This document shows positions 6,807 to 26,665 of a DNA stretch of 64,000 nucleotides, piece by piece. The notes under the pieces are model-generated. The model was not told where the DNA came from, searched no databases, and was given only the letters and a program-made list of their open reading frames with translations. The DNA comes from Burkholderiales bacterium Ga0077547 (lineage in GTDB: Bacteria > Pseudomonadota > Gammaproteobacteria > Burkholderiales > Burkholderiaceae_C): NCBI GenBank assembly GCA_001464195.1, contig LNEY01000012.1, positions 124,001 to 188,000 of the forward strand. The letters run 5' to 3'. Every line of letters starts with the position of its first letter. Positions within the stretch are counted from its first letter, which is position 1. The position numbers were made by a program, and so were the translations under genes.

Positions 6807-6826
6807 GGCTCAGGGCTCCAGCGGTT

Positions 6827-7777: not shown

Positions 7778-7825
7778 GCTAGTTCGAGGGATAAAGCCGT
7801 GGACGCATCGGTTAACGTCTCGCTC

Positions 7826-8760
<935 letters not shown>

Positions 8761-8764
<4 letters not shown>

Positions 8765-9765: not shown

Positions 9766-12700
9766 ACCGCCTCGCGTCGAACGGCGCGCTGCCACTGGCC
9801 CGGCGACTCGGCTGGCCCGGCTGGTCGCATCTGCCACGTGAAGCGCGTGACACGTTGTTCCTGCTGATCGTGATTGGCTGGACGTCGCTTCCGCATCTGA
9901 CGCATCTGCCCGTCTGGTGCGCCGTCCTCACCGCGGGCGTGCTGCTCTGGCGTGCACGGCTGGCGCTGGCTGGCTCGGCACTCCCGGGACGCGCGGTGCT
10001 GGTGCTCGTGCTGGTGATCGCCGCCAGCCTCACCTACTGGTCGTTCGGTTCGCTGCTGGGCAAGGAGCCCGGTGTGACGATGGCGGTCGCCCTGATGGCC
10101 TTGAAGACACTGGAGCTGCGTGCTCGGCGAGATGCCTTCGTGGTGTTCTTCCTGGGCTTCTTCCTGATCCTGACGCATTTTCTGTACTCGCAGAGCCTGG
10201 GCGTGGCGGCCATGATGCTGCTGTCGATCTGGGGCCTGTTGACCGCGCTGGTGCTGGCTCACATGCCCGCCGGGGCACCCAGCCTGCGCACGGCTGCGGC
10301 TCTGGCGGGCAAGACGGCAGCGCTGGGCGCACCGCTGATGGTGCTGCTGTTCGTGCTGTTCCCACGCATCGGGCCGCTCTGGGGCGTGCCGCAAGATGGT
10401 TTCTCCAGCACCGGGCTGTCGAACGTGATGAGCATGGGCACGGTCGCCGCGCTGGCGCAGGACGACAGCGTGGCACTGCGCATCCGCTTCGAAGGTGCGC
10501 CACCACCACCGCAGGACATTTACTTCCGTGGCCCGGTCCTGGGCAACTTCGATGGGCGTGACTGGACGCCGCAGAAGCCGGGCTTTCCGCCCTCGATGAC
10601 GCCGCGCGCCGAGTTGCAGGTGCAGGGTTCGCCCATCCGCTATGAGGTGACCCTGGAGCCCACCCGGCTGACGGTGCTGCCCATGCTGGAGGCCAGCCCC
10701 GAGGCGCCTCAGATCGAGGGGTTCAGCTTCACACAGACCGACGATCTGCAGTGGGTCTCCAACCGCTCGCTGTACGAACGACTGCGCTTCCAGGGCGCAG
10801 CCTATCCGAGGTTCCAGCACGGACCGAGCCAGCCGATGATCGGTCTGCAGGACTACATCGACCTGCCCCCTGGCTACAACCCCCGCACATTGGCCTGGGC
10901 ATCCGACATGCGCCGTGACCCGCGCTATGCCGAGGCCGATGCGGCGACCCTGGCCGCAGCCTTGATGGATCACATCCGCACGGGTGGGTATGGCTACACC
11001 TTGACGCCGGGCTTGTACGGCGAGAACGACCCGCGCACGGCGATCGACGAGTTCTGGCTCGATCGCAAATTGGGTTTTTGCGAGCACTACGCGGCCGCGT
11101 TCGTGGTGGTGATGCGCGCACTCGACGTGCCGGCGCGGGTGGTCACCGGCTACCAGGGGCTGGACCCGACGCCGGTGGACGGCTACCGCATCGTGCGCCA
11201 AAGCTATGCCCATGCCTGGGCCGAGTACTGGCAAGCCGGCGTGGGCTGGGTGCGCGCCGATCCGACCGCGGCCGTCGCGCCAGACCGGGTGTTGCGCAGT
11301 CGTCCCCTGGTCACGCAACCCGGGCTGGTCGCGGGGGCCTTGAACAACTTCAATCCGCAGTTGCTGGTGAGTCTGCGCAACGGCTGGGAGGCCCTGAACA
11401 ACCGCTGGAACCAATGGGTGCTCAGCTATTCGCGCGGCTCTCAGTTCGACCTGCTGCGGCAACTGGGCTTCGACGCACCGAGCTGGGAGGATCTGGGCGT
11501 GCTGCTGGCCGGCACCTTCGGCGTGCTGTCGCTGGCAGCAGCCGCTTGGGCGTGGTGGGACCGCCATCATGTCGACCCTTGGGTTCGTCAGATGCAGCGG
11601 CTGCGCGCCATGCTGCAGCGGCTGGGCATCCGTGCCGGCGAGCATGAAGCCCCTCGCACGCTGGCGCAGCGGGTGCGTGTGCGCTTTGGCGAGCAGGGCG
11701 CCCCGCTGGCTGAGTTGCTCGAGCGGCTGGATGAGCAACGCTACAGCGCCCGTGCAACCACGCGGCCTGATCCTGCCCTCACCCGTCGATTCAAGGCTCA
11801 CGCACAACGCCTCACACGGCTGACTCAGGCCCTGTGCGCGATGGTGTTCGTGGCCGCCGCGTCCTCCGATGACGCCTACGCGGCTGACGCCACCCGTGCG
11901 GCAACGCCGACCCGTGTCGCTACGACGTCCCCGTCTGCCGCCCCCAGCCAGCGCGCCCAACCGCGCAAGCACCGCGCCCGCAAGGCGCCCGTGCGCTCTG
12001 ACAACGACCCCGACATCGTGACCTACGGCCGACGCGAAGACCTGATGACGTTCGGCGCTGAGCTTGCCGCTAGGCAGGGACTCGACGTGGAGGCCGTACA
12101 GGCCGTGCTGGCGCAGGCGCGCTTTGTGCCCAGCATCGTGAAGGCGGTGATGCCGCCGCCAGCCGGCACCGCCAAGAACTGGGTGGCCTACCGAGCGCGC
12201 TTCGTCGAACCCAGGCGCATCGCCGCCGGCGCAGCGTTCTGGCAGGCCCATGCAGCCTGGCTGACGCTGGCGGAGGATCGCTATGGTGTGCCGCCGGAAA
12301 TCGTCATCGGCATCATCGGCGTCGAAACGCTTTATGGCCAGCACATGGGCAACCATCGTGTGATCGACGCGCTGACCACGCTGGGCTTCGACTTCCCGAC
12401 CGGACGCAAAGACCGCAGCGCGTTCTTTCGAGACGAGCTGGAGCAGCTGCTGGTGCTCAGCCACCGAGAAGGCAGCGACCCGTTGGCCTTGAAGGGCAGC
12501 TATGCGGGGGCGCTCGGCATGCCGCAGTTCATGCCCAGCAGCGTCAACAAGTACGCCATCGATTTCGATGGTGATGGGCACATCGATCTGCACACGAGTG
12601 CTGCCGATGTGATCGGCAGCGTGGCGCACTACCTGGCCGAGTTCGGCTGGCAGCGCGGCCTGCCCACGCACTACGAGGTGGCCGTGCCGAGCGACACCAG

Positions 12701-12983
12701 CGAGCGAGCGCTGCTGCTCGGCCCAGACATCCTGCCCACCTTCACCGCACAGCAGTTCATCGATCATGGCGCGGCATTCGGCACGCCGGCGCCGCCCCTC
12801 ACCGACAGCAGCGGCAGCGCTGCCGACGCGAAGCTGGCGCTGGTCGAACTGCAGAACGGCCCCGACGCGCCGAGCTACGTGGCCGGCACCACCAACTTCT
12901 ACGCCGTCACCCGCTACAACTGGTCCAGCTATTACGCGATGGCGGTGATCGAACTCGGGCATGCGGTCAGGCAGGCTCGATAG
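9762..12983 (+). CDS. TgpA-type transglutaminase (DUF3488) fused in frame to MltB-type lytic transglycosylase
   Basis: One uninterrupted 1073-codon frame. Residues 1-200 form about six membrane helices (DUF3488). A periplasmic transglutaminase core follows with Cys440 (GFCEHYAAAF), His484 (SYAHAWAEY) and Asp500 (VRADPTAAV). A last membrane helix (about 582-600) precedes a cytosolic basic tail. A basic then hydrophobic stretch (about 678-707, ALCAMVFVAAASS-DDAYA) looks like a signal peptide or anchor. After it come a low-complexity Pro/Arg/Ala linker and a complete MltB domain (about 740-1070): catalytic Glu855 in GIIGVETLYGQHMGNH, plus ALGMPQFMPSSVNKYAIDFD. The two halves are normally separate genes. 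No in-frame start codon gives the MltB half a proper signal n-region (only ATG 11841, inside the hydrophobic stretch). Either a true fusion or two genes joined by a small indel. Confidence 0.85.
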   Translation: MNRLASNGALPLARRLGWPGWSHLPREARDTLFLLIVIGWTSLPHLTHLPVWCAVLTAGVLLWRARLALAGSALPGRAVLVLVLVIAASLTYWSFGSLLGKEPGVTMAVALMALKTLELRARRDAFVVFFLGFFLILTHFLYSQSLGVAAMMLLSIWGLLTALVLAHMPAGAPSLRTAAALAGKTAALGAPLMVLLFVLFPRIGPLWGVPQDGFSSTGLSNVMSMGTVAALAQDDSVALRIRFEGAPPPPQDIYFRGPVLGNFDGRDWTPQKPGFPPSMTPRAELQVQGSPIRYEVTLEPTRLTVLPMLEASPEAPQIEGFSFTQTDDLQWVSNRSLYERLRFQGAAYPRFQHGPSQPMIGLQDYIDLPPGYNPRTLAWASDMRRDPRYAEADAATLAAALMDHIRTGGYGYTLTPGLYGENDPRTAIDEFWLDRKLGFCEHYAAAFVVVMRALDVPARVVTGYQGLDPTPVDGYRIVRQSYAHAWAEYWQAGVGWVRADPTAAVAPDRVLRSRPLVTQPGLVAGALNNFNPQLLVSLRNGWEALNNRWNQWVLSYSRGSQFDLLRQLGFDAPSWEDLGVLLAGTFGVLSLAAAAWAWWDRHHVDPWVRQMQRLRAMLQRLGIRAGEHEAPRTLAQRVRVRFGEQGAPLAELLERLDEQRYSARATTRPDPALTRRFKAHAQRLTRLTQALCAMVFVAAASSDDAYAADATRAATPTRVATTSPSAAPSQRAQPRKHRARKAPVRSDNDPDIVTYGRREDLMTFGAELAARQGLDVEAVQAVLAQARFVPSIVKAVMPPPAGTAKNWVAYRARFVEPRRIAAGAAFWQAHAAWLTLAEDRYGVPPEIVIGIIGVETLYGQHMGNHRVIDALTTLGFDFPTGRKDRSAFFRDELEQLLVLSHREGSDPLALKGSYAGALGMPQFMPSSVNKYAIDFDGDGHIDLHTSAADVIGSVAHYLAEFGWQRGLPTHYEVAVPSDTSERALLLGPDILPTFTAQQFIDHGAAFGTPAPPLTDSSGSAADAKLALVELQNGPDAPSYVAGTTNFYAVTRYNWSSYYAMAVIELGHAVRQAR

Positions 12984-13688: not shown

Positions 13689-14369
13689 CTAATTCGCTGT
13701 GGCTGGTAACAGTTTTTCGTACTGTCCATTTGTCTTCAACTGCCTCAACACTGCGTCGAAACTCGGAATCAGGTTCTCGTGCTTTTTGTTGACGATGTGG
13801 AATACATCGAATGAGGCAATCTTGAGGCCAGCATGGCCAATTTTGAATACGGGGGAATCTCGAAATGCGGTGCCCATCAGCGCGACATCCACCCTCCCGC
13901 TTTCAAGCATTTGAGCCAGTTGCTGATGGGTGGCAACGGGAAAGACATCCAGCGAGCTGTTTTTAACAAAATATTCGGCCACGCTCATGCCGATCACATA
14001 GCCAACTCGCTTACCTTTCAAATCCTCAATTTTAAATAATTTATTCTTTGAATTATTGGCGATCAGCGCCATCAATTCGACATTCAACAAAGGCTCTTTT
14101 GAATATCTGATATTTGGGTATTTTTCTGAGATTTCTCGAATTCGACCCACTTCAGCATGGTAAGCCCCTTCGTTCACTGCTGAGAGGGCTCGCAGCGAAG
14201 GCAGTATTTCATAAGAAACACTGATTTTCATTTGACCATATACCGCAGTCAAAAGAGGGAAGAAGCGATCATCGCCTTCCTGTGCTGCGATTCTCATGGC
14301 GCTCTGTGCAAAAGCTTCGCACCCAAGCAAGAATCCGAAAATCGCCGTCAAAATACTTTTACTTTTCAT
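13689..14369 (-). CDS. Periplasmic solute-binding protein, family 3-like, orphan
   Basis: A 226-residue exported protein. The signal peptide MKSKSILTAIFGFLLGCEAFA is followed by a two-lobed amino-acid-binding-protein fold: MRIAAQEGDDRFFPLLTAVY at the start of lobe 1, KIEDLKGKRVGYVIGMSVAEYF at the hinge, and MLESGRVDVALMG. It is shorter than typical transport binding proteins and has no permease or ATPase nearby. It may be an orphan binding or sensing protein, like those annotated 'transporter substrate-binding domain-containing protein'. GAGG lies 7 nt before ATG 14369. The gene and its upstream 120 bp are clearly AT-richer than the surroundings, which suggests transfer. Confidence 0.82.
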   Translation of the reverse strand: MKSKSILTAIFGFLLGCEAFAQSAMRIAAQEGDDRFFPLLTAVYGQMKISVSYEILPSLRALSAVNEGAYHAEVGRIREISEKYPNIRYSKEPLLNVELMALIANNSKNKLFKIEDLKGKRVGYVIGMSVAEYFVKNSSLDVFPVATHQQLAQMLESGRVDVALMGTAFRDSPVFKIGHAGLKIASFDVFHIVNKKHENLIPSFDAVLRQLKTNGQYEKLLPATAN

Positions 14370-14490: not shown

Positions 14491-15453
14491 TCACCCCTGC
14501 GGAATCACACTCACCGACACATCCATGCGCTGCATCATGCCGCCGCCGAGGATCACGCCGCGCAGGGGCACGACATCGGCGAAATCGGCGCCCCAGGCCA
14601 GCGTGATGTAGCGGCGGTCGGCGAGTTGGTCGTTCGTGGGATCGAACTCGACCCAGCCGTGGTCGGGCAAGTACGCGGCGACCCAGGCGTGCGACGCATC
14701 GACGCCCATCAGCCGCGGCATCCCGGGTGGCGGGTCGGTGAGCAGATAGCCCGACATGTAGCGGGCCGACAAGCCGTGACCACGCAGGCAGGCCAGCATC
14801 AGGTGGGCGAAGTCCTGGCACACGCCGCGGCGGTGCTGCATCACTTCGTCGACCGAGGTGCTGACGGTGGTGGCACCTGAATCGAATTCGAAATCGGTGT
14901 GGATGCGGTGGTTCAGCTCGCTCAGCGCCTCGAACCAGGGCCGATCGGCCCGCAGCGAGGGCTCCGCATACAACCGCGCCGCCTCGGACAGCGGCACCAG
15001 GCGTGTGGGTTCGGCCATGCGCGCCGCGTCGAGGTCGCAGGCTTCACCGTACGGTCGGCGCAGCGCTTCGCGCACTTCGTCGACGGTCAGCGTGGAGGCC
15101 ACGTCCGCCGCCGGCCGCTCACCCACCTCGACCTGACACTGCATGCGCACGCGCAGCTGACGATGGGCGCCATGCAGCCCGAAGTGCGACACCGAATTGC
15201 CGAAGCTGTCGAAGGCCTCATGGCGCTCGTCGGGGGGCGGGTCGATTTGCAGGCTGTGCGACAGCACCCGTTGCCAGGGCAGGCCGCGCGGTGTCAGCCG
15301 GCCCAGTTGCCACGACTGCGACACCGGCGCGGTGTAGGCGTAACGCGTTTCGTGCTCGACGGTGTAGCGGTCGAAGCGACCCTGCGGCGGGCTCGGCTGA
15401 GCACTCTGCTGCTGCCCCTGTTGCTGGCCTGACTGACCTTGTTGTTGCGACAT
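14491..15453 (-). CDS. Transglutaminase-like cysteine peptidase, last gene of the ATP-grasp/alpha-E cluster
   Basis: A 320-residue soluble protein without a signal peptide. The N-terminal glutamine-rich stretch (QQQGQSGQQQGQQQ) is followed by the bacterial transglutaminase N-terminal beta domain (YTVEHETRYAYTAPVSQSWQ). The papain-like transglutaminase core has Cys212 (RRGVCQDFAHLML), His255 (DASHAWVAAYLP) and Asp271 (WVEFDPTND). Members of this group are predicted peptidases or amidases rather than true cross-linking enzymes. The ATG shares one base with the stop codon of the upstream ATP-grasp/alpha-E gene, so the two are translationally coupled. Substrate unknown. Confidence 0.9.
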   Translation of the reverse strand: MSQQQGQSGQQQGQQQSAQPSPPQGRFDRYTVEHETRYAYTAPVSQSWQLGRLTPRGLPWQRVLSHSLQIDPPPDERHEAFDSFGNSVSHFGLHGAHRQLRVRMQCQVEVGERPAADVASTLTVDEVREALRRPYGEACDLDAARMAEPTRLVPLSEAARLYAEPSLRADRPWFEALSELNHRIHTDFEFDSGATTVSTSVDEVMQHRRGVCQDFAHLMLACLRGHGLSARYMSGYLLTDPPPGMPRLMGVDASHAWVAAYLPDHGWVEFDPTNDQLADRRYITLAWGADFADVVPLRGVILGGGMMQRMDVSVSVIPQG

Positions 15454-17948
15454 CAGGCCACCAGCGACAACACGCTGCGCGACGCCGCATGCGAGAAGAA
15501 CTTCAGTGTCAGCTCATCGGACACCGCATGCGCTGCGCGCTGCAACTGCGCAATGACGTCGGCCAGCGCTTCGCTCTCCGGGTGCAGGTCAACGCTGGAC
15601 AGGTTGCGCAGCCCATGGTGTGCGGGCGCCAGCACGTCGCTGGCGAAGCGTCCATGGCTCAGCTCCAGCTTGGCGATGTACTCGGCCAGGCCCTTGACCT
15701 GGAAGGCCAGCGAGCGCGGGTTCACCTCGTCGCGCAGCAGCAGGTCCAGCACTGGCAGCCATTCGGGCGCGACCAGGTAGCGCGAACGGTAGGTGACGGT
15801 GGAGTCGGCGTATTCGAGTAGCCAGTCGAGGCCGTGCGTGCGCCCTTCGTGGGTCGCGACCTGCAGCACATTGCACAGTGTCGACAAGCGCTCCAGCCGC
15901 CGACCGATCGACAGGAACCGCCAGCCCACGCCGCGTGTCATGCCATCGAGCACGAAGCCCGACAGCGTGGTCATCGAGGTCACCGCACGGTCCAGCCACG
16001 ACATCGCCAGCGGCAGCCCGAGGCTGGTCGAAGAGAGGCCGCGCTGAAACACCGGGTCGGCAATCAGCTGGTTCAACGAGCGCCAGTGGTCGGCCGACAT
16101 CCGATCGCGCAGGTTGAAGGCCACGCGTGACAGTTGCTTGAGCCGCTCACTCAAGCCCTCGTCGGGGTGCGTCGCAGCGCGCAGCAGGTCGGTCGCGGGC
16201 TGCTCGACCGAGTCGATCAGCCCGAATCGCTGCGCCAGGATCAGCGTGGGCGGCACGCCGTCGCTGAGCTCGCGCGATTCGTCGAGCACATCGGAGATGG
16301 CAACCCGCAGCAGCCGCGCGGCCGCATCGCAGCGCTCACCGTAGCGGCCGAACCAGAAGAGGTTCTCGGCCGCACGCGAAGGCACATTGGCGCGCGATGC
16401 GACCAGGTCTTCCGGCTTGACGGTGCGGCTCAGCAACGAGAACGAGGCATTGACCGGCGCGTCGGACAGCACCCAGGTGTCTTTCGAGCGACCCCCGCGC
16501 TGCATCGCGATCACGCGCGAATGGTCGTCGCCGGCCACCCGGGTCAGCCCACCTGGCAGCACGTGGTAGCCGTTGGGCGTGGCCACCGCAAACACCCGCA
16601 GCCCGACGGTGCGCGAACTCATCTGCTCGCCACGACCTGGCTCGTTGCGCACCTCGAGCACCGGGGCTTGCGACACATGCACCCACTCCTGTGCCACATA
16701 GCGCTGAGGGCGTGCCGCCACACGCGCTCGCAAGGCCGCACGCTCTGTTGCCGACAGGTCGGCGCCGAACAGCGCCGGCTCTCGCACCGAGCGTTCCAGT
16801 GGCTTGATGATCAGCTTGTCGAGCCGACGCCAAGCATCGTCGAGGGCCGCCGGTTCGCCCAGCCACCAGGTCGCCACCGAAGGCAATCGCAGGGGCTCGC
16901 CGAGCAGTTGCTCACTGAGCTTGGGCAGGTAGCCCAGCAGCGCGCCGGATTCGAGCACGCCCGACCCCAGCGCGTTGGCCAGCAGCACCGTGCCGCGGCG
17001 CGCGCAGTCCGTCAGGCCGGGGATGCCCAGTGCCGAATCGGAGCGCAGCTCGAGTGGGTCGCAGTAATCGTCGTCCTGACGGCGAAGGATGCCGCTGACG
17101 CGCTTCAAACCCTCGACGGTCTTCATCCAGACACAGCCGTCGCGCACCGTGAGGTCGCTGCCTTCGACCAGCGGGAAGCCCAGGTAACGGGCCAGCAGCG
17201 CGTGCTCGAAATAGGTTTCGTTGTAGGGCCCCGGTGTCAGCAGCACCACCAGCGGATTGGCGCGCTCGAACACCCGATCGGTGTGATCCTTCGGCGCCCA
17301 GCGCATCATCGACTGGCGCAAGGCCTCGAAGAAGGCTGCCAGGTGCTGCACATGCAGCTCCTTGAACATCTGCGGGAACACGCGCGACACCACCAACCGG
17401 TTCTCGAGCGCATAGCCGGCACCCGAAGGCGCCTGGGTGCGGTCGTTCACCACCCACCAGTGGCCATCGGGCGAGCGCGCCAGGTCAGCGGCGTAGTTGA
17501 ACAGGTGCACGCCACCGGCCGGACGGATGCCCTGCACCTGATGCAGGTAGCCGCTGTGGCCATAGATGATCGACGGTGGGATCGCGCCCGAGCGCAGCAG
17601 TTCCTGCGGGCCATAAATGTCGCCCAGCACCCGGTTCAGCAGATCGGCGCGCTGTGCGATGCCGGCGGAGATCTCGTCCCATTCGGCTGCCGACAGCAGC
17701 AGCGGCAGCGGATCAACTTCCCAGGGCCGGTCGGCGCCCTTCGGATCGGCATACACGTTGTAGGTGATGCCGTTCTCGCGGATCTCGCGCTCCATCAGCG
17801 ACAGGGTTTCGCTGACCTCGGCACCTTCCCGCGCGGCCAGCGAGCGCAGAAAGGCTTCCCAATGCGGGCGCGGCGATCCAGGGGCTGACAACAGCTCGTC
17901 GTAGCGACCTTCGACCGAGGTGTAGCCGGACAACAGGCGGGTCAACAT
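15453..17948 (-). CDS. Circularly permuted type-2 ATP-grasp protein fused to an alpha-E domain
   Basis: An 831-residue two-domain protein. Residues 1-490 form a circularly permuted ATP-grasp (DUF404/DUF407 type): NGITYNVYADPKGADRPWEVD, SGYLHQVQGI, LVVLLTPGPYNETYFEHALLAR, ending in GLTRVAGDDHSRVIAMQRGG-RSKDTWVL. Residues 520-825 form an alpha-E (DUF403) domain starting SRAAENLFWFGRYGERCDAA. ATP-grasp enzymes make acyl-phosphate intermediates and form amide or peptide bonds, so a peptide ligase role is predicted. ATG 17948 is used; a TTG three codons upstream (17957) is possible. The two domains occur again as separate genes at 21542-23999. Confidence 0.9.
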   Translation of the reverse strand: MLTRLLSGYTSVEGRYDELLSAPGSPRPHWEAFLRSLAAREGAEVSETLSLMEREIRENGITYNVYADPKGADRPWEVDPLPLLLSAAEWDEISAGIAQRADLLNRVLGDIYGPQELLRSGAIPPSIIYGHSGYLHQVQGIRPAGGVHLFNYAADLARSPDGHWWVVNDRTQAPSGAGYALENRLVVSRVFPQMFKELHVQHLAAFFEALRQSMMRWAPKDHTDRVFERANPLVVLLTPGPYNETYFEHALLARYLGFPLVEGSDLTVRDGCVWMKTVEGLKRVSGILRRQDDDYCDPLELRSDSALGIPGLTDCARRGTVLLANALGSGVLESGALLGYLPKLSEQLLGEPLRLPSVATWWLGEPAALDDAWRRLDKLIIKPLERSVREPALFGADLSATERAALRARVAARPQRYVAQEWVHVSQAPVLEVRNEPGRGEQMSSRTVGLRVFAVATPNGYHVLPGGLTRVAGDDHSRVIAMQRGGRSKDTWVLSDAPVNASFSLLSRTVKPEDLVASRANVPSRAAENLFWFGRYGERCDAAARLLRVAISDVLDESRELSDGVPPTLILAQRFGLIDSVEQPATDLLRAATHPDEGLSERLKQLSRVAFNLRDRMSADHWRSLNQLIADPVFQRGLSSTSLGLPLAMSWLDRAVTSMTTLSGFVLDGMTRGVGWRFLSIGRRLERLSTLCNVLQVATHEGRTHGLDWLLEYADSTVTYRSRYLVAPEWLPVLDLLLRDEVNPRSLAFQVKGLAEYIAKLELSHGRFASDVLAPAHHGLRNLSSVDLHPESEALADVIAQLQRAAHAVSDELTLKFFSHAASRSVLSLVA

Positions 17949-18009
17949 GTCAGACAACCGGGTTCATGTGATCGATTGTCATACGTGATCCCACGCGGCC
18001 CCGGATCGG

Positions 18010-21000
18010 TCAGAAGGCGCTGGGGGTTCGGCGCATGTCGAGGGTGAACGGGTAGTTCGGGTTGCGCTCGTCCTTGGGCACCTCCATCTTGCCCGGCGTG
18101 TGGCCAGTGCGGAAGAAACGCGCCAAGCGGCGGGCCTCGGCCTCGAAGGCGTTGACCGGGAAGCTGTCGTAGCTGCGCCCGCCAGGGTGCGCCACGTGGT
18201 ACTGACAACCGCCCATCGAGCGGCCCATCCAGGTGTCTAGCAGGTCGAACGTCAGCGGCGCATGCACCCCGATCGTCGGATGCAGCGCTGAAGGCGGGTT
18301 CCACGCCTTGTAGCGCACGCCGCCGACGAACTCGCCCACCTGGCCGGTCGGCTGCATCGGCACCACCCGGCCGTTGCAGGTCAGCACATGGCGGTCGCCG
18401 ACCAGACCGGTCGCCTTCAATTGCACCCGCTCGACCGACGAGTCGACGTAGCGTGCCGTGCCGCCAGAAGCACCCTCCTCGCCCATCACATGCCAGGGCT
18501 CGAGGGCCAAACGCATCTCGACCTCGACGCCCAGCACCGCAAAGTCGCCAAGGCGCGGGAAGCGGAAATTGAGGTGCGGCGCAAACCAGTCGGTCTTCAT
18601 CGCGTAGCCGAAATTGTTCAGCTCCTCGATCACGTCGGTCAGGTCCTGCCAGATGAAGTGCGGCAACATGAAGCGGTCGTGCAGCTCGGTGCCCCAGCGC
18701 TTGAGACGCGCCGGGCGGTACGGCTCCTTCCAGAAGCGCGAGACCAGCGCGCGCATCAGCAACTGCTGCGTCAGGCTCATGCGGGCATGCGGCGGCATCT
18801 CGAACGCACGCATTTCCAGCAGGCCGAGCCTGCCGGTCGGGCCATCGGGCGAATAGAGCTTGTCGATGCAGAACTCGGCACGGTGGGTATTGCCCGACAC
18901 GTCGATCAGCAGGTTGCGCAGCAGGCGGTCGATCAGCCACGGTGGGCAGTAGTCGCCCTGCTCTCGGGTGACGCGTTGCAGTTCGGCGAATGCCACCTCG
19001 ATCTCGTAGACCGAATCGTTACGCGCCTCATCGACGCGCGGCGCCTGGCTGGTCGGGCCGACGAACAGGCCCGAGAACAAATAACTGAGCGCCGGATGGT
19101 TATGCCAGTAGGCGACCATGCTGGCGAGCAAATCGGGCCGGCGCAGGAACGGAGAGTCGGCCACCGTGGCGCCCCCCAGCACGAAGTGGTTGCCGCCGCC
19201 CGTACCGGTATGGCGGCCATCGACCATGAACTTCTCGGTCGAGAGCCTGGTTTCATGCGCGCTCTGGTACAGGTGCGTGGTCTGGTCGACCAGTTCTTCC
19301 CAGCTGTGCGCCGGGTGCACATTGACCTCGATCACGCCAGGGTCTGGCGTGACGCGCAGCGTGGACAGGCGCGGGTCCTTCGGCGGCTCGTAGCCTTCGA
19401 GGATGACGGGCAGCTTCATCTCGGCGGCGGTGTCTTCGACCGCAGCGATGATCTCCAGGTAGTCCTCCAGCGCCGTCATCGGCGGCATGAAGACATACAG
19501 CCGGCCGCCGCGGGGCTCAGCGCACAGCGCCGTGCGGCTGATCCAGGCAGCCGACTCGAATTTGTCGGGCACGCGCAGGCTGCTGGCCGGCGCACTGGCC
19601 ACCGATTTGTCGGGGCCTTGCGCGGCGCGCGAACGCTCGGCGAAACCGGCTGATGAACCATTGGCTGGCACGGCTGCAGACGATGCGCCTTGTCCGTCGG
19701 TGGAGCCATTCGGAGTTGTGGCCGCAAAGCGCAGCCGCCGATACGGTGGCAGCGGCACGAAAGTCTGGGTCTGATCGACAGGCAGCACCCAGGGCATGTC
19801 GCCTTCCTTGGCCCAGGGCTGCGAGTCCAGCGGCAGCCGGAAGCCCAGCGGTGAGTCACCCGGCACCAGGTAGCAGCGCTCGGAGCGCAGGAACCATGGC
19901 CCGGTGGTCCAGCGCGGCTGGCCCAGCGTGCCTCGAGCGATCGGCAGCACGTGGCCCACGACTTTCTCAAGCCCCTGGCTGAACACCTTGCGCAGACGAT
20001 CACGCTCCATCGGATCGGACAGGCGCGCGTCGAGCGGATCGACATTGGTGGGGAGCTTGCGCTCGCGCCACAGGTAGTACCAGGTGTCCTCGTAGGCCGG
20101 GAACACGTACTTCGCATCGAGCGCCAGGCGGCGCGCCACGCTGCTCAGAAACTTGTGAGCCTGCGCATCGGTGACCTCGTAATCCTTGCGCTCGTTGGCA
20201 AACAGTTCGGGGTGCGTCCAGATCGGCTCGCGATCCTTGCGCCAGTACAGGTTCAGCGACCAGCGCGGCAGTTGCTCGCCGGGGTACCACTTGCCTTGGC
20301 CGTAGTGCAGCAGGCCACCCTGCCCGTACTTCAGGCGCAGCTTGTCCATCAGGTCGGCGCTCAGCAGCCGCTTGGTCGGGCCCATCGCCTCGGTGTTCCA
20401 TTCGGCGCCGTCGCGGTCGTCTACTGACACGAAGGTCGGCTCGCCGCCTTGCGTGAGCCGCACGTCGTTGCGGCGCAGGTCCAGATCGACCCGGTGCCCC
20501 AGCGCCTCGATGCCTTCCCATTGCGCATCGGTGTAGGGCAAGGTGACGCGCGGGGCCTCCCAGACCCGGGTGACGCTCATGCTGTGCTCGAACTCGGTCT
20601 CGCACTCGTCGATGGCGCCGCTGACCGGCGCGGCCGACGACGGGTCGGGCGAGCAGGCCAGTGGGATGTGGCCTTCGCCCGCCAGCAGACCCGAGGTCGG
20701 GTCGAGGCCGATCCAGCCAGCGCCCGGCAGGAACACTTCGCACCAGGCGTGGAGATCGGTGAAATCGATCTCGGTGCCGCTCGGACCGTCGAGCGATTTC
20801 ACATCGCTCTTGAGCTGGATCAGATAGCCGGAGACGAAGCGCGCTGCCACGCCCAGGTGTCGCATCAGTTGCACCAGCAGCCAGCCGGTGTCGCGGCAGG
20901 AGCCCAGCTTGTTGACCAGCGTTTCCTCGGGCGTCTGCACGCCCGGTTCCATGCGGATCGTGTAGCCGATGTCCTTTTGCAACTGCTGGTTCACGTCGAC

Positions 21001-21447
21001 CAGAAAGTTGTTCATCGGCGTCTTCTTGCCGGCAAAACGCTCGCGGCACGCGTCGAGGTAGGCCTGGAAATGTGGCGTGGCCTCGGCCTTCGCCATGTAC
21101 GGCGCCAGTTCGGCCTCCACCTCGGGGGCGTACTTGAACGGATAGTGCTCGGCCGACGGCTCCAGAAAAAAGTCGAACGGATTGAGCACCGACATCTCGG
21201 CCACCAGATCGATCTCGATGCGGAACGAGGTGGTCTTGTCCGGAAACACCAGACGCGCCAGGTAGTTCGACTGCGGGTCCTGCTGCCAGTTGATGAAGTG
21301 GGTGGCCGGCTCGACCCGCATCGAGTAGCTCAGGATGCGGGTGCGCGAATGAGGCGCCGGACGCAAACGCACGACCTGTGGGCCCAGGTTGATGGGCCGG
21401 TCGTAGCGGTAGTGCGTCACATGGTTCAGCGCGACGTGGATGGACAT
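18010..21447 (-). CDS. Transglutaminase-like domain fused to DUF2126 (predicted amidoligase)
   Basis: A 1145-residue protein. Residues 1-290 carry a transglutaminase fold with Cys184 (NKLGSCRDTGWLL), His233 (FTDLHAWCEVFL) and Asp249 (WIGLDPTSG). Residues about 300-1145 are DUF2126: LTQGGEPTFVSVDDRDGAEW, GLLHYGQGKWYPGEQLPRWS, HTGTGGGNHFVLGGATVADS and WPKEPY-like segments, ending near NPNYPFTLDMRR. DUF2126 has been proposed to be a glutamine-synthetase-like COOH-NH2 ligase on comparative grounds. The insert NGSTDGQGASSAAVPANGSS (about 575-610) is a low-complexity linker. It is the central gene of the five-gene minus-strand cluster, 94 bp downstream of the alpha-E gene and 61 bp upstream of the fused ATP-grasp gene. 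Confidence 0.92.
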   Translation of the reverse strand: MSIHVALNHVTHYRYDRPINLGPQVVRLRPAPHSRTRILSYSMRVEPATHFINWQQDPQSNYLARLVFPDKTTSFRIEIDLVAEMSVLNPFDFFLEPSAEHYPFKYAPEVEAELAPYMAKAEATPHFQAYLDACRERFAGKKTPMNNFLVDVNQQLQKDIGYTIRMEPGVQTPEETLVNKLGSCRDTGWLLVQLMRHLGVAARFVSGYLIQLKSDVKSLDGPSGTEIDFTDLHAWCEVFLPGAGWIGLDPTSGLLAGEGHIPLACSPDPSSAAPVSGAIDECETEFEHSMSVTRVWEAPRVTLPYTDAQWEGIEALGHRVDLDLRRNDVRLTQGGEPTFVSVDDRDGAEWNTEAMGPTKRLLSADLMDKLRLKYGQGGLLHYGQGKWYPGEQLPRWSLNLYWRKDREPIWTHPELFANERKDYEVTDAQAHKFLSSVARRLALDAKYVFPAYEDTWYYLWRERKLPTNVDPLDARLSDPMERDRLRKVFSQGLEKVVGHVLPIARGTLGQPRWTTGPWFLRSERCYLVPGDSPLGFRLPLDSQPWAKEGDMPWVLPVDQTQTFVPLPPYRRLRFAATTPNGSTDGQGASSAAVPANGSSAGFAERSRAAQGPDKSVASAPASSLRVPDKFESAAWISRTALCAEPRGGRLYVFMPPMTALEDYLEIIAAVEDTAAEMKLPVILEGYEPPKDPRLSTLRVTPDPGVIEVNVHPAHSWEELVDQTTHLYQSAHETRLSTEKFMVDGRHTGTGGGNHFVLGGATVADSPFLRRPDLLASMVAYWHNHPALSYLFSGLFVGPTSQAPRVDEARNDSVYEIEVAFAELQRVTREQGDYCPPWLIDRLLRNLLIDVSGNTHRAEFCIDKLYSPDGPTGRLGLLEMRAFEMPPHARMSLTQQLLMRALVSRFWKEPYRPARLKRWGTELHDRFMLPHFIWQDLTDVIEELNNFGYAMKTDWFAPHLNFRFPRLGDFAVLGVEVEMRLALEPWHVMGEEGASGGTARYVDSSVERVQLKATGLVGDRHVLTCNGRVVPMQPTGQVGEFVGGVRYKAWNPPSALHPTIGVHAPLTFDLLDTWMGRSMGGCQYHVAHPGGRSYDSFPVNAFEAEARRLARFFRTGHTPGKMEVPKDERNPNYPFTLDMRRTPSAF

Positions 21448-21541
21448 TCAGGACTCCAGGGAGGGCACGAACAAGAGGTGCCGGAAAAACGCGTCAACAA
21501 GATGAAAGAGAGCCGCTGCTTACCGCGGCGACGTCGAAACC

Positions 21542-22549
21542 TCAGGACTGAACCGGCACCAGGAAGTCGCGACTGATGCCCACACCGAGCGTGCCCACCC
21601 GCTCCAGAAACTGCGTCAGGTACGCGTGCAGCCCGGTCGCCAGGATCTCGTCGATGCGGCCGTACTGCAGATCGGCCCGCAAGCGACCGGCGCGGCGCAG
21701 GGTCTCGCTGGACTGCTCGTTGGCGATCATGGTCAGGTTCGACAGCACCTCCTGCGTGCAGGCGGCCAGCGAGCGCGGCATGTCCGGGCGCAGGATCAGC
21801 AACTCGGCCACCTTCTCCGGCCGGATCACGTTGCGGTAGACCTTGCGATAGACCTCGAAGCCCGAGACCGACCGCAGGATCGCCGACCAGTGATAGAAGT
21901 CGTACTCGACATCGCGGCCGCTGACCGGCGTGTCGCCTTGAGACTGGCTCTGTGATTGGCTCATGCCATCGGGTCCGCCGAAGAATTCGCTCTCGACCGC
22001 GTGGAACTTCACATCGAGCAACCGCGCGGTGTTGTCGGCCCGCTCCAGGAAGCTGCCAATGCGCAGGAAGTGAAACGCGTCGTCCTGCAGCATCGTGCCC
22101 ACCGTCACGCCGCGCGACAGGTGCGACCGGAACTTGACCCATTCGAAGGCAGCGCCTGGGTCCTTGAGGAAGGCGCCGTTGCTGACCATGCGCTGGAACT
22201 CCAGCCAGGTCTGGTTCTGCGTTTCCCAGACCTCGGTCGTGAGCGTGCCGCGCACGGCGCGGGCGTTTTCGCGCGCGGCCATCAGGCAGTTGCGGATGCT
22301 CGAGCCGTTCTCCGGGTCGCTGACCATGTACTCCATGACGCTGCGGGCGGTCACGGCGCCGTAGCGCGACGCGAAGTCACCGCTCAGCTCGGAGATGCTG
22401 AGCAGGCCCTTCCAGCCCTGCTCGGCCGCGTCAGCAGATTGCGGCAGCAGCGACGTCTGGTAGTTGACATCCAGCATGCGCGCAGTGTTTTCGGCCCGCT
22501 CCATGTAGCGAGCCATCCAGAAGAGGTGATCGGCGGTTCTTGACAGCAT
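21542..22549 (-). CDS. Alpha-E domain protein (DUF403)
   Basis: A 335-residue all-helical alpha-E protein. It opens with the family hallmark LSRTADHLFWMARYMERAEN and has a second helical repeat AFHFLRIGSFLERADNTARLLD. Function is not established experimentally; the domain is nearly always encoded next to a circularly permuted ATP-grasp and a transglutaminase and is thought to assist the ligase. GGAGG stands 7 nt upstream of ATG 22549, which decides the start over an upstream in-frame ATG. It begins 13 bp after the ATP-grasp gene and is certainly co-transcribed with it. Confidence 0.92.
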   Translation of the reverse strand: MLSRTADHLFWMARYMERAENTARMLDVNYQTSLLPQSADAAEQGWKGLLSISELSGDFASRYGAVTARSVMEYMVSDPENGSSIRNCLMAARENARAVRGTLTTEVWETQNQTWLEFQRMVSNGAFLKDPGAAFEWVKFRSHLSRGVTVGTMLQDDAFHFLRIGSFLERADNTARLLDVKFHAVESEFFGGPDGMSQSQSQSQGDTPVSGRDVEYDFYHWSAILRSVSGFEVYRKVYRNVIRPEKVAELLILRPDMPRSLAACTQEVLSNLTMIANEQSSETLRRAGRLRADLQYGRIDEILATGLHAYLTQFLERVGTLGVGISRDFLVPVQS

Positions 22550-22562
22550 GTTCAGGCCTCCA

Positions 22563-23999
22563 TCAAGCTTCAAGTACCCAGGTGTCCTTGGTGCCGCCAC
22601 CCTGGGACGAATTGACGACCAGCGAGCCCTCCTTCAACGCCACACGCGTCAGGCCACCGGGCACCATCTGCACCGTCTTGCCACTGAGCACGAAGGGCCG
22701 CAGGTCGATGTGGCGCGGCGCGATGCCGGATTCGACAAAGGTGGGGCAGGTCGACAGCGCCAGCGTCGGCTGTGCGATGTAGCCTGTGGGATTGGCTTCA
22801 AGCACCGCGCGGAACTCGGCGATCTCGGCCTTGGTGGAGGCCGGGCCGACCAGCATGCCGTAGCCGCCCGCACCGTGCACCTCCTTGACCACCAGTTCGG
22901 GCAGGTGATCCAGCACGTACTTCAGATCGCCCGGCTCGCGGCACAGGTAGGTCGGCACGTTGTTCAGGATGGGCTTTTCGCCGAGATAGAACTCGATCAT
23001 CTTCGGCACATACGGGTAGATCGACTTGTCATCGGCGACACCGGTGCCAACCGCATTCGACAGCGTCACGTTGCCGGCGCGGTAGGCGCTGATCAGGCCG
23101 GCACAGCCCAGTGTCGAATCCTCTCGAAACACCGTCGGGTCGAGGAAGTCGTCGTCGAGCCGCCGGTAGATCACATCGACCCGCTTGGGGCCCTGCGTGG
23201 TGCGCATGTAGACGAAGTTGTCCTTGACGAACAGGTCCTGCCCCTCGACCAGTTCGATGCCCATCTGCTGCGCCAGGAAGGCATGCTCAAAGTAGGCGCT
23301 GTTGTACATGCCAGGCGTCAGCACCACCACGGTCGGCTCGTTGACCGATGCCGGCGCCACCGCGCGCAGGGTTTCGAGCAGCATGTCGGGGTAGTGCGCA
23401 ACCGGCTCGACACGGTGCTGGCTGAACAGCTCCGGGAACAGCCGCATCATCATCTTGCGGTTCTCGAGCATGTAGCTCACACCGCTGGGCACGCGCAGGT
23501 TGTCCTCGAGCACGTAGTAGCTGCCGGTGCCGTCGGCATTGCCGGCGCGCACGATGTCGATGCCGGCGATGTGCGAATAAACGCCGCAGGGCACATCGAC
23601 ACCCATCATCTCGGGCCGGAACTGCGCGTTCTTGAAGATCTGGTCGCCGGGGACGATGCCCGCCTTGATGATTTCCTGGTCGTGGTACACGTCGTGGATG
23701 AACCGGTTCAGCGCCACCACGCGCTGGCGCAGGCCCTTCTCCATCTCGATCCACTCGTGGGACGGAATCACCCGGGGAATCAGGTCGAACGGGATCAGCC
23801 GCTCGGTACCCGAGCCGTCCTCGTCCTTCGCGCCGTACACCGCGAAGGTGATACCGACGCGGCGAAAAATCATCTCCGCTTCTTCGCGGCGCGACTTCAT
23901 CACGTCGCCCGGTTGTTGCGCCAGCCACTGCTCGTAGCCGCGGTAATGCTCACGCACCTGGGTGCTGGTGGCCTGCATCTCGTCAAAACTTGATCTCAT
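22563..23999 (-). CDS. Circularly permuted type-2 ATP-grasp protein (stand-alone)
   Basis: A 478-residue ATP-grasp of the DUF404/DUF407 type. It shows ITFAVYGAKDEDGSGTERLI, GVYSHIAGIDIVRAG, NLRVPSGVSYMLENRKMM and VVVLTPGMYNSAYFEHAFLA. The C-terminal GGLTRVALKEGSLVVNSSQG-GGTKDTWVLEA parallels the fused copy at 15453-17948. The predicted chemistry is ATP-dependent amide bond formation. ATG 23999 is 8 nt from GAGGAG, better placed than ATG 24005 or 24032. It is the first gene of the minus-strand cluster; the 115 bp upstream to comEC presumably holds the promoter. Confidence 0.92.
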   Translation of the reverse strand: MRSSFDEMQATSTQVREHYRGYEQWLAQQPGDVMKSRREEAEMIFRRVGITFAVYGAKDEDGSGTERLIPFDLIPRVIPSHEWIEMEKGLRQRVVALNRFIHDVYHDQEIIKAGIVPGDQIFKNAQFRPEMMGVDVPCGVYSHIAGIDIVRAGNADGTGSYYVLEDNLRVPSGVSYMLENRKMMMRLFPELFSQHRVEPVAHYPDMLLETLRAVAPASVNEPTVVVLTPGMYNSAYFEHAFLAQQMGIELVEGQDLFVKDNFVYMRTTQGPKRVDVIYRRLDDDFLDPTVFREDSTLGCAGLISAYRAGNVTLSNAVGTGVADDKSIYPYVPKMIEFYLGEKPILNNVPTYLCREPGDLKYVLDHLPELVVKEVHGAGGYGMLVGPASTKAEIAEFRAVLEANPTGYIAQPTLALSTCPTFVESGIAPRHIDLRPFVLSGKTVQMVPGGLTRVALKEGSLVVNSSQGGGTKDTWVLEA

Positions 24000-24114
24000 C
24001 GGCATCACTCCTCGGGCCCAGGGAAGCAACATTCAGGCCATTGACGCCCCAAAACAGGGCGCCAGCGGGGCGCATGGTCACCATCGGACCGCCCGATCAT
24101 GCACGCAGTGCGCG

Positions 24115-26613
24115 TCATGGCCGTGGATCGGGCTGCCAATGCCAGTACCGGCTGGAGTCAGCGCGCTCGCAAACGGCTGGGTTCGATCCCCAGTCGGTAC
24201 CGCTGCGCCAGGTCCAGGCGCCGCACGTTGGTGTGTCGATGCGGGCAATGCCTCGTTCGCGGTAGCGGGCCAGCACCGCATCGGCCGGGTGCCCATAGCG
24301 GTTGAGGTGACCCACCTGAAACACCGCCAAGCGAGGTGCGACCGCGTCGAGAAACGCCGCCGTCGAGGACGTCTTGCTGCCATGGTGCGGCGCGATCAGC
24401 ACGGTGCTGCGCAAGGCCTCGGGCTGCTCCCGCAGCAAGCGGATCTCCTGCTCGCGCTCGATGTCGCCGGTCAGCAGCACACTGCCATCGTCCCCTGACG
24501 CGGCCTGCACCCTCAGCACACACGACATCCCGTTCGAACGCAGCGGCAACACGTAATCACCCGCTGCAGGGTGCAGTACCTCGAAGTTCACACCGTCCCA
24601 TTCCCACCTCTGACCCGCCTCACAGCGGCGCGACACGATCCCCTGCTGCTGCGCCTGCAGACGCAAGGGATGCAGCTCTTCGATCGAACTCGTCAGCTCG
24701 GCGATGGGCGCGCTCTGCAGCAAGCTGGACGCTCCGCCCACATGGTCGCTGTCACGGTGGCTCAGCACCAGCGTGTCGATGCGGTGATCGCCGCGCGCTC
24801 GCAGCAGCGGCAGCAGCACACGCTGCCCCGCATCGACCTCGGGCGCGTACTGCGGGCCGCTGTCGTAGAGCAGCACATGGTGTCGCGTTCGGACCAGCAC
24901 CGCCGTGCCCTGCCCGACGTCCGCAGCCACCAGCTCGAACTGGCCGTGGGGTGGCACGTCGCGCGGCGGCATCAGCAGCGGCCAGACCAGCGGCAGCGCC
25001 AGCGCCCGCAGGCGCCACGGCAGCGGCATCACCAGCAGCACAGCGCCCAACAAGCCCGCGGCCTGCGCCCAACCCGGCGCGACCCCCACAGACCACAGCA
25101 CGCCAGGCGCGCTCGCCAACCACTCCAGGCACGCGGTGAGCATCGCTACCACCGTGGCCGCCACGCTCCACAGCCAGGGTGCCGCACAGCCCAGCAGCGC
25201 CAGCGGCGTGATGACCAACGTGACCAGCGGGATCGCGACCAGGTTGGCCACAAAGCCGATCAACGACAACTGCTGAAAGAACACCAGCGTCAGCGGTGCG
25301 AGACCGAAGGTGGCCACCAGCTGAGTTCGAACGCCACCAGTGACGGCACCGCGCAGGCCTCGCTGCCACGCCGGGACCGGGCCCGGTGCCGAACGGTCAG
25401 GTTGACTCGACTCGACGGCAGGCGGCATCAGCTGCGCCTGGCCCGACACCATCAACAGACCGACGGCAGCAAACGACAGCCAGAACCCCGGCTGCAACAG
25501 GGCCCACGGATCGATCAAGGTCACCACGTCCGCAGCGATCAGCAACACCAGTGGCCACGGCCAGCGCACACCGACACTGCGCAGCAGCGTGACCGCCGCC
25601 AGCATCCAGACCGTGCGCTGCGCCGGCACCCCCCAGCCGGAAAGCACCGCATAGGCCAGCGCCACGACCAACCCGCCCCACAGTGCCGCCGCGGGTGCAG
25701 GGACCCACGACATCGCCGACACGCTGCGCCGCCACACGGCACCGATGACCAGACCGGCCAGCCAGGCAAACATCGTGACGTGAACTCCGCTGACCGACAC
25801 CAGATGCGAGATGCCGCTGCGGCGGAACAGCTCCCAGTCCTCGCGCTCGATCGCCGACTGATCGCCCACCGCCAATGCCGTCAATACGCCGGCCACGCGA
25901 GCCTCGGGCACCGCAGCGTCGATCGCATCACGCGCACGCTGGCGCAGTCGCTCGACCGGGTGCGCTGCTGCGCGATCCAACAGCTCCGGTGTGGGCGCGT
26001 CGCGCACCGACCCGGTGGCGCGCACACCTTCCTCGAACCAGCGCAGTTCCTGGTCGAAGCCATGCGGGTTCGCCAGCCCGTGCGGGCGGCGCAGTCGAAC
26101 CGTGAAGCGCCAGCGCTGGCCGGCGCGCAACTCGCGCTGTTCAGCCGATGGAGCCGCATCGTCGTCGAAGCCGTGGTACCAGCCCAGCGAAACGACCGAT
26201 GGCAGCACCACCGCCTTCCCGCCGAACGTCGCCTGCTCGACGTCGAAGCGGAAGCGCAAGCCGTTGGCGCCGCGCTGCGGCAGGCTGGCGACAACGCCTG
26301 TGATCTGCAGGTCGCGCGCCTCCAGCTGCACTGGCAGCGCTTCCGTCAGACGAAGCATCGCGCGGGCACCGGTGAGGCCATAGGCCAGCAAGGTCAGCCC
26401 CAGCGCCACGCCGATGGCTGCCACCGGAAGTCGGCGCCCAAGCAACAAGGGCGCAAGGAGCAGCGCCCCGATCGCCATGCAGAGCACGTAAACCGTCATC
26501 GGCTGCAGCGCAGCCTCCTGCAGCTGCACGGCGGCACCGACAGGCCACGCCGCGGCCCACATCGCGAGCCGCCAACCGGTGTTCGCGGCAGGGTCGGCGC
26601 GGTAGGCAGGCAT
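24115..26613 (-). CDS. comEC: ComEC/Rec2 DNA-uptake channel
   Basis: An 832-residue polytopic membrane protein of the ComEC/Rec2 family, which moves transforming single-stranded DNA across the inner membrane. An N-terminal soluble OB-like domain follows the first helices. The competence domain includes HLVSVSGVHVTMFAWLAGLV. The C-terminal metallo-beta-lactamase-like domain has LLYDSGPQYAPEVDAGQRV and LVLSHRDSDHVGGASSLL (the HxxxDH-type metal motif) and ends with APHHGSKTSSTAAFLDA. ATG 26613 gives the usual N-terminus. It diverges from the RidA-family gene, with 52 bp between. No other competence genes are in the window. Confidence 0.93.
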   Translation of the reverse strand: MPAYRADPAANTGWRLAMWAAAWPVGAAVQLQEAALQPMTVYVLCMAIGALLLAPLLLGRRLPVAAIGVALGLTLLAYGLTGARAMLRLTEALPVQLEARDLQITGVVASLPQRGANGLRFRFDVEQATFGGKAVVLPSVVSLGWYHGFDDDAAPSAEQRELRAGQRWRFTVRLRRPHGLANPHGFDQELRWFEEGVRATGSVRDAPTPELLDRAAAHPVERLRQRARDAIDAAVPEARVAGVLTALAVGDQSAIEREDWELFRRSGISHLVSVSGVHVTMFAWLAGLVIGAVWRRSVSAMSWVPAPAAALWGGLVVALAYAVLSGWGVPAQRTVWMLAAVTLLRSVGVRWPWPLVLLIAADVVTLIDPWALLQPGFWLSFAAVGLLMVSGQAQLMPPAVESSQPDRSAPGPVPAWQRGLRGAVTGGVRTQLVATFGLAPLTLVFFQQLSLIGFVANLVAIPLVTLVITPLALLGCAAPWLWSVAATVVAMLTACLEWLASAPGVLWSVGVAPGWAQAAGLLGAVLLVMPLPWRLRALALPLVWPLLMPPRDVPPHGQFELVAADVGQGTAVLVRTRHHVLLYDSGPQYAPEVDAGQRVLLPLLRARGDHRIDTLVLSHRDSDHVGGASSLLQSAPIAELTSSIEELHPLRLQAQQQGIVSRRCEAGQRWEWDGVNFEVLHPAAGDYVLPLRSNGMSCVLRVQAASGDDGSVLLTGDIEREQEIRLLREQPEALRSTVLIAPHHGSKTSSTAAFLDAVAPRLAVFQVGHLNRYGHPADAVLARYRERGIARIDTPTCGAWTWRSGTDWGSNPAVCERADSSRYWHWQPDPRP

Positions 26614-26665
26614 GCAGCGCAGTGTAGGATTTGGCGCTGCTTTTCCCAGCCACCCACACCCCCCC

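Follow-up and report, generated by a model that had tools for sequence, protein, structure and literature searches.

A five-gene ATP-grasp, alpha-E, transglutaminase and DUF2126 cluster of Burkholderiales bacterium Ga0077547 as a possible two-module, nitrogen-limitation amide ligase/hydrolase system

Operons in which a circularly permuted ATP-grasp and an alpha-E protein are encoded with a transglutaminase (TG) and the HslV-like peptidase Anbu are the closest described relatives of the gene cluster analysed here, together with operons of Burkholderia cenocepacia and Pseudomonas putida that respond to nitrogen supply. The cluster is located in a 64,000-nt stretch of the genome of Burkholderiales bacterium Ga0077547 (contig LNEY01000012.1, positions 124,001 to 188,000), referred to as the window. 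It consists of five genes, all on the minus strand, in the order ATP-grasp, alpha-E, TG-DUF2126, ATP-grasp/alpha-E fusion and TG. We read it tentatively, with a little less than even confidence, as a nitrogen-limitation amide ligase/hydrolase system that forms one sigma54-type transcription unit, in which two modules lie end to end and which would use one competent ATP-grasp and a putative glutamine-synthetase-like ligase.

The nitrogen and NtrC response is known from papers on related operons. Mutation of ntrC in B. cenocepacia H111 lowered expression of I35_5080-83, annotated as DUF404/407, DUF403, TG and large TG, by factors of 8.2, 9.4, 9.4 and 6.0; 95% of the top 150 NtrC-dependent genes were also sigma54-dependent, and the TG cluster was named among the common targets (PMC5491218). 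In P. putida, PP_2686-2688 were up 12.6-, 11.0- and 14.7-fold in the wild type under nitrogen limitation, and control by NtrB/NtrC was presumed by the authors (PMC7801951). PP2685-2687 were up 11.1-, 6.6- and 7.1-fold in nitrogen-limited versus carbon-limited chemostats (PMC3325844), and a marine metagenome study links these domains with urea metabolism (PMC3597751). The relatedness of the B. cenocepacia and P. putida genes to the window cluster is taken from their published description.

The five genes, as identified by Pfam, and the two elements upstream of them are as follows.

22563..24005, minus strand: standalone circularly permuted ATP-grasp (CP_ATPgrasp; longest open reading frame (ORF) 24032-22563; 555/520 bits), with D150, E167, N169, K374, GGYG, H432 and D434 all kept.
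21542..22549 with the probable start (longest ORF 22600-21542), minus strand: standalone alpha-E with two ER motifs (329 bits).
21447-18010, minus strand: TG-DUF2126, composed of Bact_transglu_N, Transglut_core and DUF2126 (DUF2126 1346 bits), with an intact Cys-His-Asp triad.
17957-15453, minus strand: predicted fused pseudo-ATP-grasp and alpha-E (500 and 203 bits), with E-x-N replaced by N-x-R.
15453-14491, minus strand: second transglutaminase-like protein (Bact_transglu_N and Transglut_core), with an intact triad.
24025..24040, minus strand: sigma54-type -24/-12 element TGGCCTGAATGTTGCT, matching 11/12 consensus positions.
24059..24073, minus strand: terminator-like dyad GCGCCCCGCTGGCGC, which may either terminate the upstream gene or serve as an NtrC-like site.

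The first-pass annotation had described this set from the sequence as five genes in close order on one strand and had linked it to the predicted amide-bond/Anbu network. Both statements hold, as Pfam recovers the five genes and the domain set is that of the network. Intergenic gaps are, in cluster order, about 13, 94, 52-61 and -1 nt, taking 22549 as the alpha-E start and either 17957 or 17948, which is perhaps the true one, as the start of the fusion gene; the start of the second TG overlaps the fusion-gene stop by 1 nt. The ATG at 24032 falls within the promoter element, and the probable true start of the first gene is 24005 or 23999. A comEC-like gene (24115-26667, same strand) lies upstream and leaves ~109 nt before the start at 24005.

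The sigma54-type element ends 11 nt before a GAGGAG sequence (24013-24008), and transcription that began ~12 nt past the GC of the -12 box would produce a short leader containing GAGGAG. At ten other loci of the same genus, an element with the sequence TGGCCTG stands upstream of the matched start, at a distance of 35 or 41 nt. Upstream regions were scored over 12 positions with GG and GC fixed, and dinucleotide shuffles served as controls; in these counts, as in those of residues and gene order below, related sequences are separate rows, and co-occurrence p-values likewise overstate independence. Operon heads that begin with the ATP-grasp gene score at least 10 in 65/82 cases and at least 11 in 40/82, and heads that begin with TG-DUF2126 do so in 63/81 and 22/81 (shuffles 3.7% and 0.2% for both). 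Scores of at least 10 were found before internal genes in 0/36 (TG-DUF2126), 0/85 (alpha-E), 3/99 (fusion) and 7/120 (TG) cases, near the shuffled rates, and the rates in random windows drawn from the loci were 3.8% and 0.8%. Since the elements stand at the heads of both modules and are near chance before internal genes, this distribution supports the cluster being a single transcription unit and the modules being under shared control where they are apart.

The two ATP-grasps differ in the residues expected of an active ligase. In the standalone protein, D150, E167, D168, N169, R171, K374, GGYG, H432, D434 and NSSQ 465-468 are invariant across 65 aligned copies. The motif E-x-N-x3-P-S-G resembles what we take to be the metal site of GshB, and the signature residues are presumed to bind Mg-ATP, following GshB and GspS. 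The standalone protein matches PDB entry 3n6x, a 'putative glutathionylspermidine synthase', with 736 bits, and a PDB profile search with it gave only chance rows beyond this entry. Fused copies retain E-x-N in 0/109, GGYG in 0/109, H432 in 1/109 and D434 in 0/109 cases, K374 in 85/109 and D150 in 108/109. At position 167 all 109 fused copies have A, S, N or G instead, and at position 169 there are 108 R and a single H. The alignment of fused with standalone copies is well anchored, as the flanking positions D150, R153, S174, Y178 and R183 are kept in 106 to 109 of the 109 fused copies, and a profile alignment concurs. The active-ligase set (D...E-x-N, Lys, Gly-rich loop) is thus present in the standalone gene and not in the fused one. 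Plasmid-borne copies follow the same division, with E-x-N in 6/6 standalone copies (Deinococcus, Agrobacterium, Tsukamurella, Paenibacillus, Limimaricola and Enterobacter) and in 0/5 fused copies (Sinorhizobium, Sphingomonas, Tsukamurella, Shinella and Enterobacter). The standalone copy is therefore predicted to be a competent ATP-grasp, and the fused copy, because E-x-N, GGYG and HxD are lost across 109 copies, is probably a conserved pseudo-enzyme.

In a tree of 24 rows, with active copies from four phyla and fused copies from two, standalone and fused ATP-grasps fall on opposite sides of one branch with a support of 100 in the SH-like approximate likelihood ratio test (SH-aLRT). This tree and the Anbu tree below are quick searches with SH-aLRT support only, and long branches were flagged in each. 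Each ATP-grasp/alpha-E set also occurs without the other adjacent. A recent duplication of the pair within the operon was rejected on account of this branch, and what the first-pass annotation had taken for duplication of the ligase/alpha-E pair inside one operon is, by this tree, an old split between two modules with separate histories. Its suggestion of two linked ligation steps is likewise unlikely, given the residues missing from the fused copy; the second ligase, if any, would be DUF2126.

The standalone alpha-E gave an all-helical AlphaFold2 model (predicted local distance difference test (pLDDT) 90.7, predicted template modelling score (pTM) 0.89) with no PDB match at E<=0.001. In the fused alpha-E, both ER pairs are kept (94 or 95 of 95 per position) and R177 is not. 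Both TGs are predicted to be transglutaminase-fold thiol enzymes, as alignment finds their triads intact in the window copies; the residues are C in 121/123, H in 122/123 and D in 122/123 of the TG-DUF2126 copies, the remainder being gaps, and C in 131/134, H in 134/134 and D in 133/134 of the other TGs. DUF2126 has no PDB sequence match at E<=0.01. A Foldseek search with its model (pLDDT 68.9, pTM 0.72) listed 50 rows, of which 46 are glutamine synthetases, many of them chains of the same entry, all at E>=0.32 and with probabilities up to 0.51. None of these rows is significant, and on the basis of this model DUF2126 may be a glutamine-synthetase-like amide ligase.

The distribution of the genes was followed in 80 genomes of relatives, including the source genome, and in a phylum sample of 150 genomes. 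Gene order was surveyed in 121 DUF2126 loci, made up of the window, 40 stretches of relatives and 80 named loci; the latter are the best 80 of the scan and are biased toward close relatives. Fifty named genomes were chosen from these loci, and they overlap the relatives at least at a Thiomonas locus, which appears twice (L131 and L036, the same contig positions in G116 and G046); L131 is in the order counts and was omitted from the promoter counts. Order counts take only recognised family genes, so that other genes may intervene. Standalone and fused alpha-E were separated by score and open-frame length. The fused-alpha-E profile carried ATP-grasp sequence and was not used in the promoter, co-occurrence, triad and ER, or 121-locus order counts.

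DUF2126 was found in 44/80 genomes of the relatives, the source genome included, and in 15/15 genomes of the genus. TG-DUF2126, fusion and TG are consecutive in 101/121 loci, and the complete window order is present in 30/121, 3 of these 30 having one extra recognised gene at the end. Of the other 20 loci, six lack a fusion and carry Anbu next to TG-DUF2126; the remainder have shortened or rearranged gene orders and in part lie at contig ends. Named Pseudomonas loci contain the TG-DUF2126/fusion/TG triplet alone within 10-kb flanks. In eight stretches around the other alpha-E of triplet genomes (L179-L186), ATP-grasp and alpha-E are adjacent in 8/8 and followed by a TG in 7/8. An IncFII plasmid of Enterobacter roggenkampii also has all five genes in this order and was the sole plasmid record found at near identity. 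The arrangement, seen at other DUF2126 loci and on this plasmid, is recurrent and not confined to the source genome, and the recurring order that had been proposed is thereby confirmed. Scattering of the genes in close relatives, named beforehand as evidence that would count against one system, was not seen within the genus, where 9/14 other genomes have all five genes in order and the matches reach contig ends in the remaining 5; among wider relatives in the 121-locus survey, however, the two modules are often separate. A fusion and TG pair with no DUF2126 beside it is present on plasmids of Sinorhizobium, Sphingomonas and Tsukamurella (L199, L200 and L203).

Module 2, the TG-DUF2126, fusion and TG genes, depends on module 1, the standalone ATP-grasp and alpha-E genes, in its co-occurrence. 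In the phylum sample, where alpha-E is found in 84/150 genomes, fused alpha-E always occurs with standalone alpha-E (44/44) and so does DUF2126 (46/46), and 40 of the 84 standalone-alpha-E genomes are without fused alpha-E and 38 without DUF2126. All 50 named DUF2126 genomes have both alpha-E forms (50/50), and 28/50 have Anbu. Among the relatives, 38/40 genomes with fused alpha-E also have the standalone form (a fragment in G001).

No Anbu gene was found within the 64,000-nt window, and the earlier remark that the peptidase partner is missing holds to that extent. It does not hold for the genome, as an Anbu gene (381 bits, E 2e-114 against a profile of six operon Anbus; up to 309 bits against Anbu chains of the PDB) is present on the same contig (G000:C12:119448-120275, L159:11449-12276) on the strand opposite to the cluster. 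Its end lies 3.7 kb ahead of the window start, at a distance of 18.2 kb from the final gene of the cluster. A search with PF00227 had listed only an HslV-like gene, which is followed by an ORF recognised by eye as HslU; Anbu was overlooked because it scores 21.0 bits against a cut-off of 22.4, and the conclusion that Anbu is absent from the genome was dropped. The protein belongs to the Anbu sequence family and has the Met-Thr start and T2, D18 and K33 of the operon alignment, as well as a C-terminal tail unseen in most operon Anbus. Its ATG overlaps the mutS stop, and DAHP_synth_1 (kdsA-like by length) and enolase genes are downstream. In a tree of 38 Anbus, 17/20 displaced genes and one mutS-linked Limnohabitans gene group together with a support of 85, nested within the operon Anbus. 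For 12/20 displaced Anbus a MutS motif was seen immediately upstream, and about 16 of the 20, judged by eye, share a C-terminal tail like KKITxPxEKLI. This suggests that the Anbu gene moved out of the operon in an ancestral member of this family. Two displaced Anbus, L177 (G004:C10) and L178 (G001:C319), are second, divergent copies of the genus in a separate group outside the main one.

Anbu was found in 61 of the 80 relatives; Anbu and alpha-E are both present in 60, neither in 17, alpha-E alone in 2 and Anbu alone in 1. That last genome, G030, has Anbu without any alpha-E found. Weak Anbu matches of 16-58 bits come from other ORFs read in a shifted frame and were excluded from counts. In the phylum sample, 53/54 Anbu genomes have alpha-E. 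The idea that the fusion and second TG replace Anbu, suggested by the six loci with Anbu beside TG-DUF2126 and no fusion, was rejected; DUF2126, fusion and Anbu share a stretch in G131, G139, G147 and G186 among others, and Anbu and DUF2126 are independent among standalone-alpha-E genomes (28/18/25/13, p=0.66).

The chemistry, its direction and its substrate we infer as follows. Module 1, the ATP-grasp with all signature residues and alpha-E, is elsewhere the core of the Anbu operon, and its Anbu would here be the one at mutS, at a distance of 18 kb. Both the active ATP-grasp and DUF2126, as a glutamine-synthetase-like ligase, would use ATP to link a carboxylate with an amine or peptide, and within module 2 the fused pseudo-ATP-grasp/alpha-E may act as a non-catalytic binding or docking subunit for this ligation. 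The two TG-fold thiol enzymes, with Anbu in trans, would cut or transfer the resulting amides, and nitrogen held in amines or peptides would thereby be recovered under starvation. Salvage or turnover is favoured over storage because the related operons respond to nitrogen limitation.

Several results weigh against the nitrogen-limitation ligase/hydrolase reading. PP_2686-2688 were still up 14.2-, 16.0- and 19.6-fold in an rpoN mutant of P. putida under nitrogen limitation (PMC7801951 Table 2), and our confidence, which had stood at even, was reduced slightly for this reason. The urea-transport genes urtA-D are likewise up in that mutant, which puts either the rpoN strain or the sigma54 rule in doubt in P. 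putida; as printed, the result speaks against strict sigma54 dependence. PP_2685, described there as resembling a 20S proteasome beta subunit, was up only 1.12-fold (PMC7801951). In the window upstream region, the best NtrC-consensus match, at a site other than the dyad, is 9/12 and not above chance alone, and scores of at least 10/12, obtained for 25/82 ATP-grasp heads (shuffled 2.0%) and 11/81 TG-DUF2126 heads (4.5%), also occur in 8/36 internal TG-DUF2126 upstreams (shuffled 4.6%), so that the sites are not clearly specific. The substitutes in the fused ATP-grasp are themselves conserved (R at 169 in 108/109, Q at 171 in 104/109, K374 kept in 85/109), and it could be an altered catalyst, not a dead one. 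Fold support for DUF2126 is weak (best E 0.32, probability up to 0.51, pLDDT 68.9). Since Anbu gave no match in 31 of the 84 standalone-alpha-E genomes of the phylum sample and displaced Anbu upstreams have little sigma54 signal (at least 10 in 3/20), Anbu may be outside the nitrogen response of the cluster. Fused alpha-E is also without a visible standalone form in 2/40 relatives (G006 and G022, drafts 85% and 65% complete).

Four other explanations were weighed. The ligases could tag proteins with a peptide, and Anbu and the TGs could remove the tags or degrade the tagged proteins, recycling amino acids in nitrogen starvation; Iyer et al. are said to have made this peptide-tagging prediction in 2009 for an amidoligase network with DUF2126 and alpha-E. 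The hypothesis and the ATP-grasp/alpha-E/TG/Anbu operon are both reported in PMC6376114 and PMC5666114, Anbu tracks alpha-E among the relatives, and nitrogen limitation fits protein turnover, which has also been suggested for PP_2685-2688 (PMC7801951). Purified Anbu, however, cleaved none of the peptides tested, and no specific operon-protein interaction was detected (PMC6376114), and in the phylum sample 18 of the 46 genomes with DUF2126 gave no match to Anbu. We regard tagging as rather unlikely. Successive ligation by two active ATP-grasps, giving one product or acting on two substrates as first proposed, would account for two CP_ATPgrasp domains in one operon, each conserved across its own family, but is highly improbable when the fused copy is without the E-x-N pair, GGYG and HxD.

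ATP-grasp-type amide ligases build amide-linked polymers elsewhere, and the cluster could make a nitrogen store or cell-surface polymer of amide-linked units. Related operons are nevertheless induced by nitrogen limitation, when a store would be drawn down, and no polymer-export or glycosyl-transfer gene was present among the 15 other nearby ORFs scanned with Pfam; a polymer is very unlikely. An anti-phage or other conflict system would be consistent with a multi-gene set that is also plasmid-borne, but the regulation of the related operons is of a nitrogen type and DUF2126 is in every genome of the genus. A defence role was rejected, as 0/5 proteins have a match in PADLOC-DB, and any conflict function is extremely improbable.

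If the nitrogen-limitation ligase/hydrolase reading is followed, the sigma54-type elements on both modules and the published nitrogen data point to a growth condition in which to seek a phenotype and product, and the likelihood that only one ATP-grasp is catalytic singles out the standalone protein for assays and leaves the fused one to be handled as its partner. The broader proposal, an ancient and widespread nitrogen-starvation pathway with uncharacterised amide chemistry, in which a live ATP-grasp, a dependent dead fused ATP-grasp and a circularly permuted glutamine-synthetase-like ligase act together, is doubtful. If true, bacterial nitrogen salvage would have a further branch that has gone unrecognised, with Anbu as an optional accessory. 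In the open-licence PMC literature on these domains and Anbu, as far as its text was accessible, no substrate, product or activity assignment was found, in agreement with the earlier statement that no product is assigned, and DUF2126 by name had no match in a full-text search of open-licence PMC papers.

Two neighbouring ORFs were noted. The ORF at 13689-14369 (minus strand), 121 nt downstream of the last cluster gene, weakly matches solute-binding proteins (SBP_bac_3, 21.6 bits), below the cut-off. The ORF at 9762-12983 (plus strand, 1073 amino acids) encodes TgpA_N and Transglut_core domains together with an SLT_2 lytic transglycosylase domain in a single frame; convergent with the cluster, it follows a MoxR-like ATPase gene (within 6599-8764), and TG-like matches were seen at the corresponding place in L064-L066.

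Compared with the known systems, the first two genes of the window cluster are the circularly permuted ATP-grasp and alpha-E genes that begin the Anbu operon, which at L191, L192 and L197 and in Limimaricola are followed by TG and Anbu. In the window cluster, module 2 instead follows alpha-E directly, with neither a separate TG ahead of TG-DUF2126 nor an Anbu gene, and the Anbu of the source genome is at mutS, within the displaced group that mostly shares a C-terminal extension. Because no separate TG follows alpha-E and Anbu is 18 kb away, the cluster does not strictly qualify as an Anbu operon. B. cenocepacia I35_5080-83, by annotation, likewise has ATP-grasp, alpha-E, TG and large TG genes in a row (PMC5491218), and the window cluster differs from it in the same missing TG. 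This gene order is also present in Burkholderia sp. TSV86 (L108). Glutathionylspermidine synthetase and the PuuA-type glutamine-synthetase-like gamma-glutamyl-amine ligases likewise serve nitrogen use by ligating amines in amide linkage at the expense of ATP, and are paired with an amidase. The likeness to these would be one of analogy, the sole sequence match found being 3n6x, the 'putative glutathionylspermidine synthase'. The amidoligase/peptide-tagging network predicted in 2009, as described in citing papers, has the same domain set. Relative to that network as cited, the window cluster adds an apparently dead fused ATP-grasp, separate histories of the two modules, sigma54-type elements on both and the dependence of module 2 on module 1. 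The cluster is thus a member of a known predicted network, to which its regulation and a likely dead subunit add evidence.

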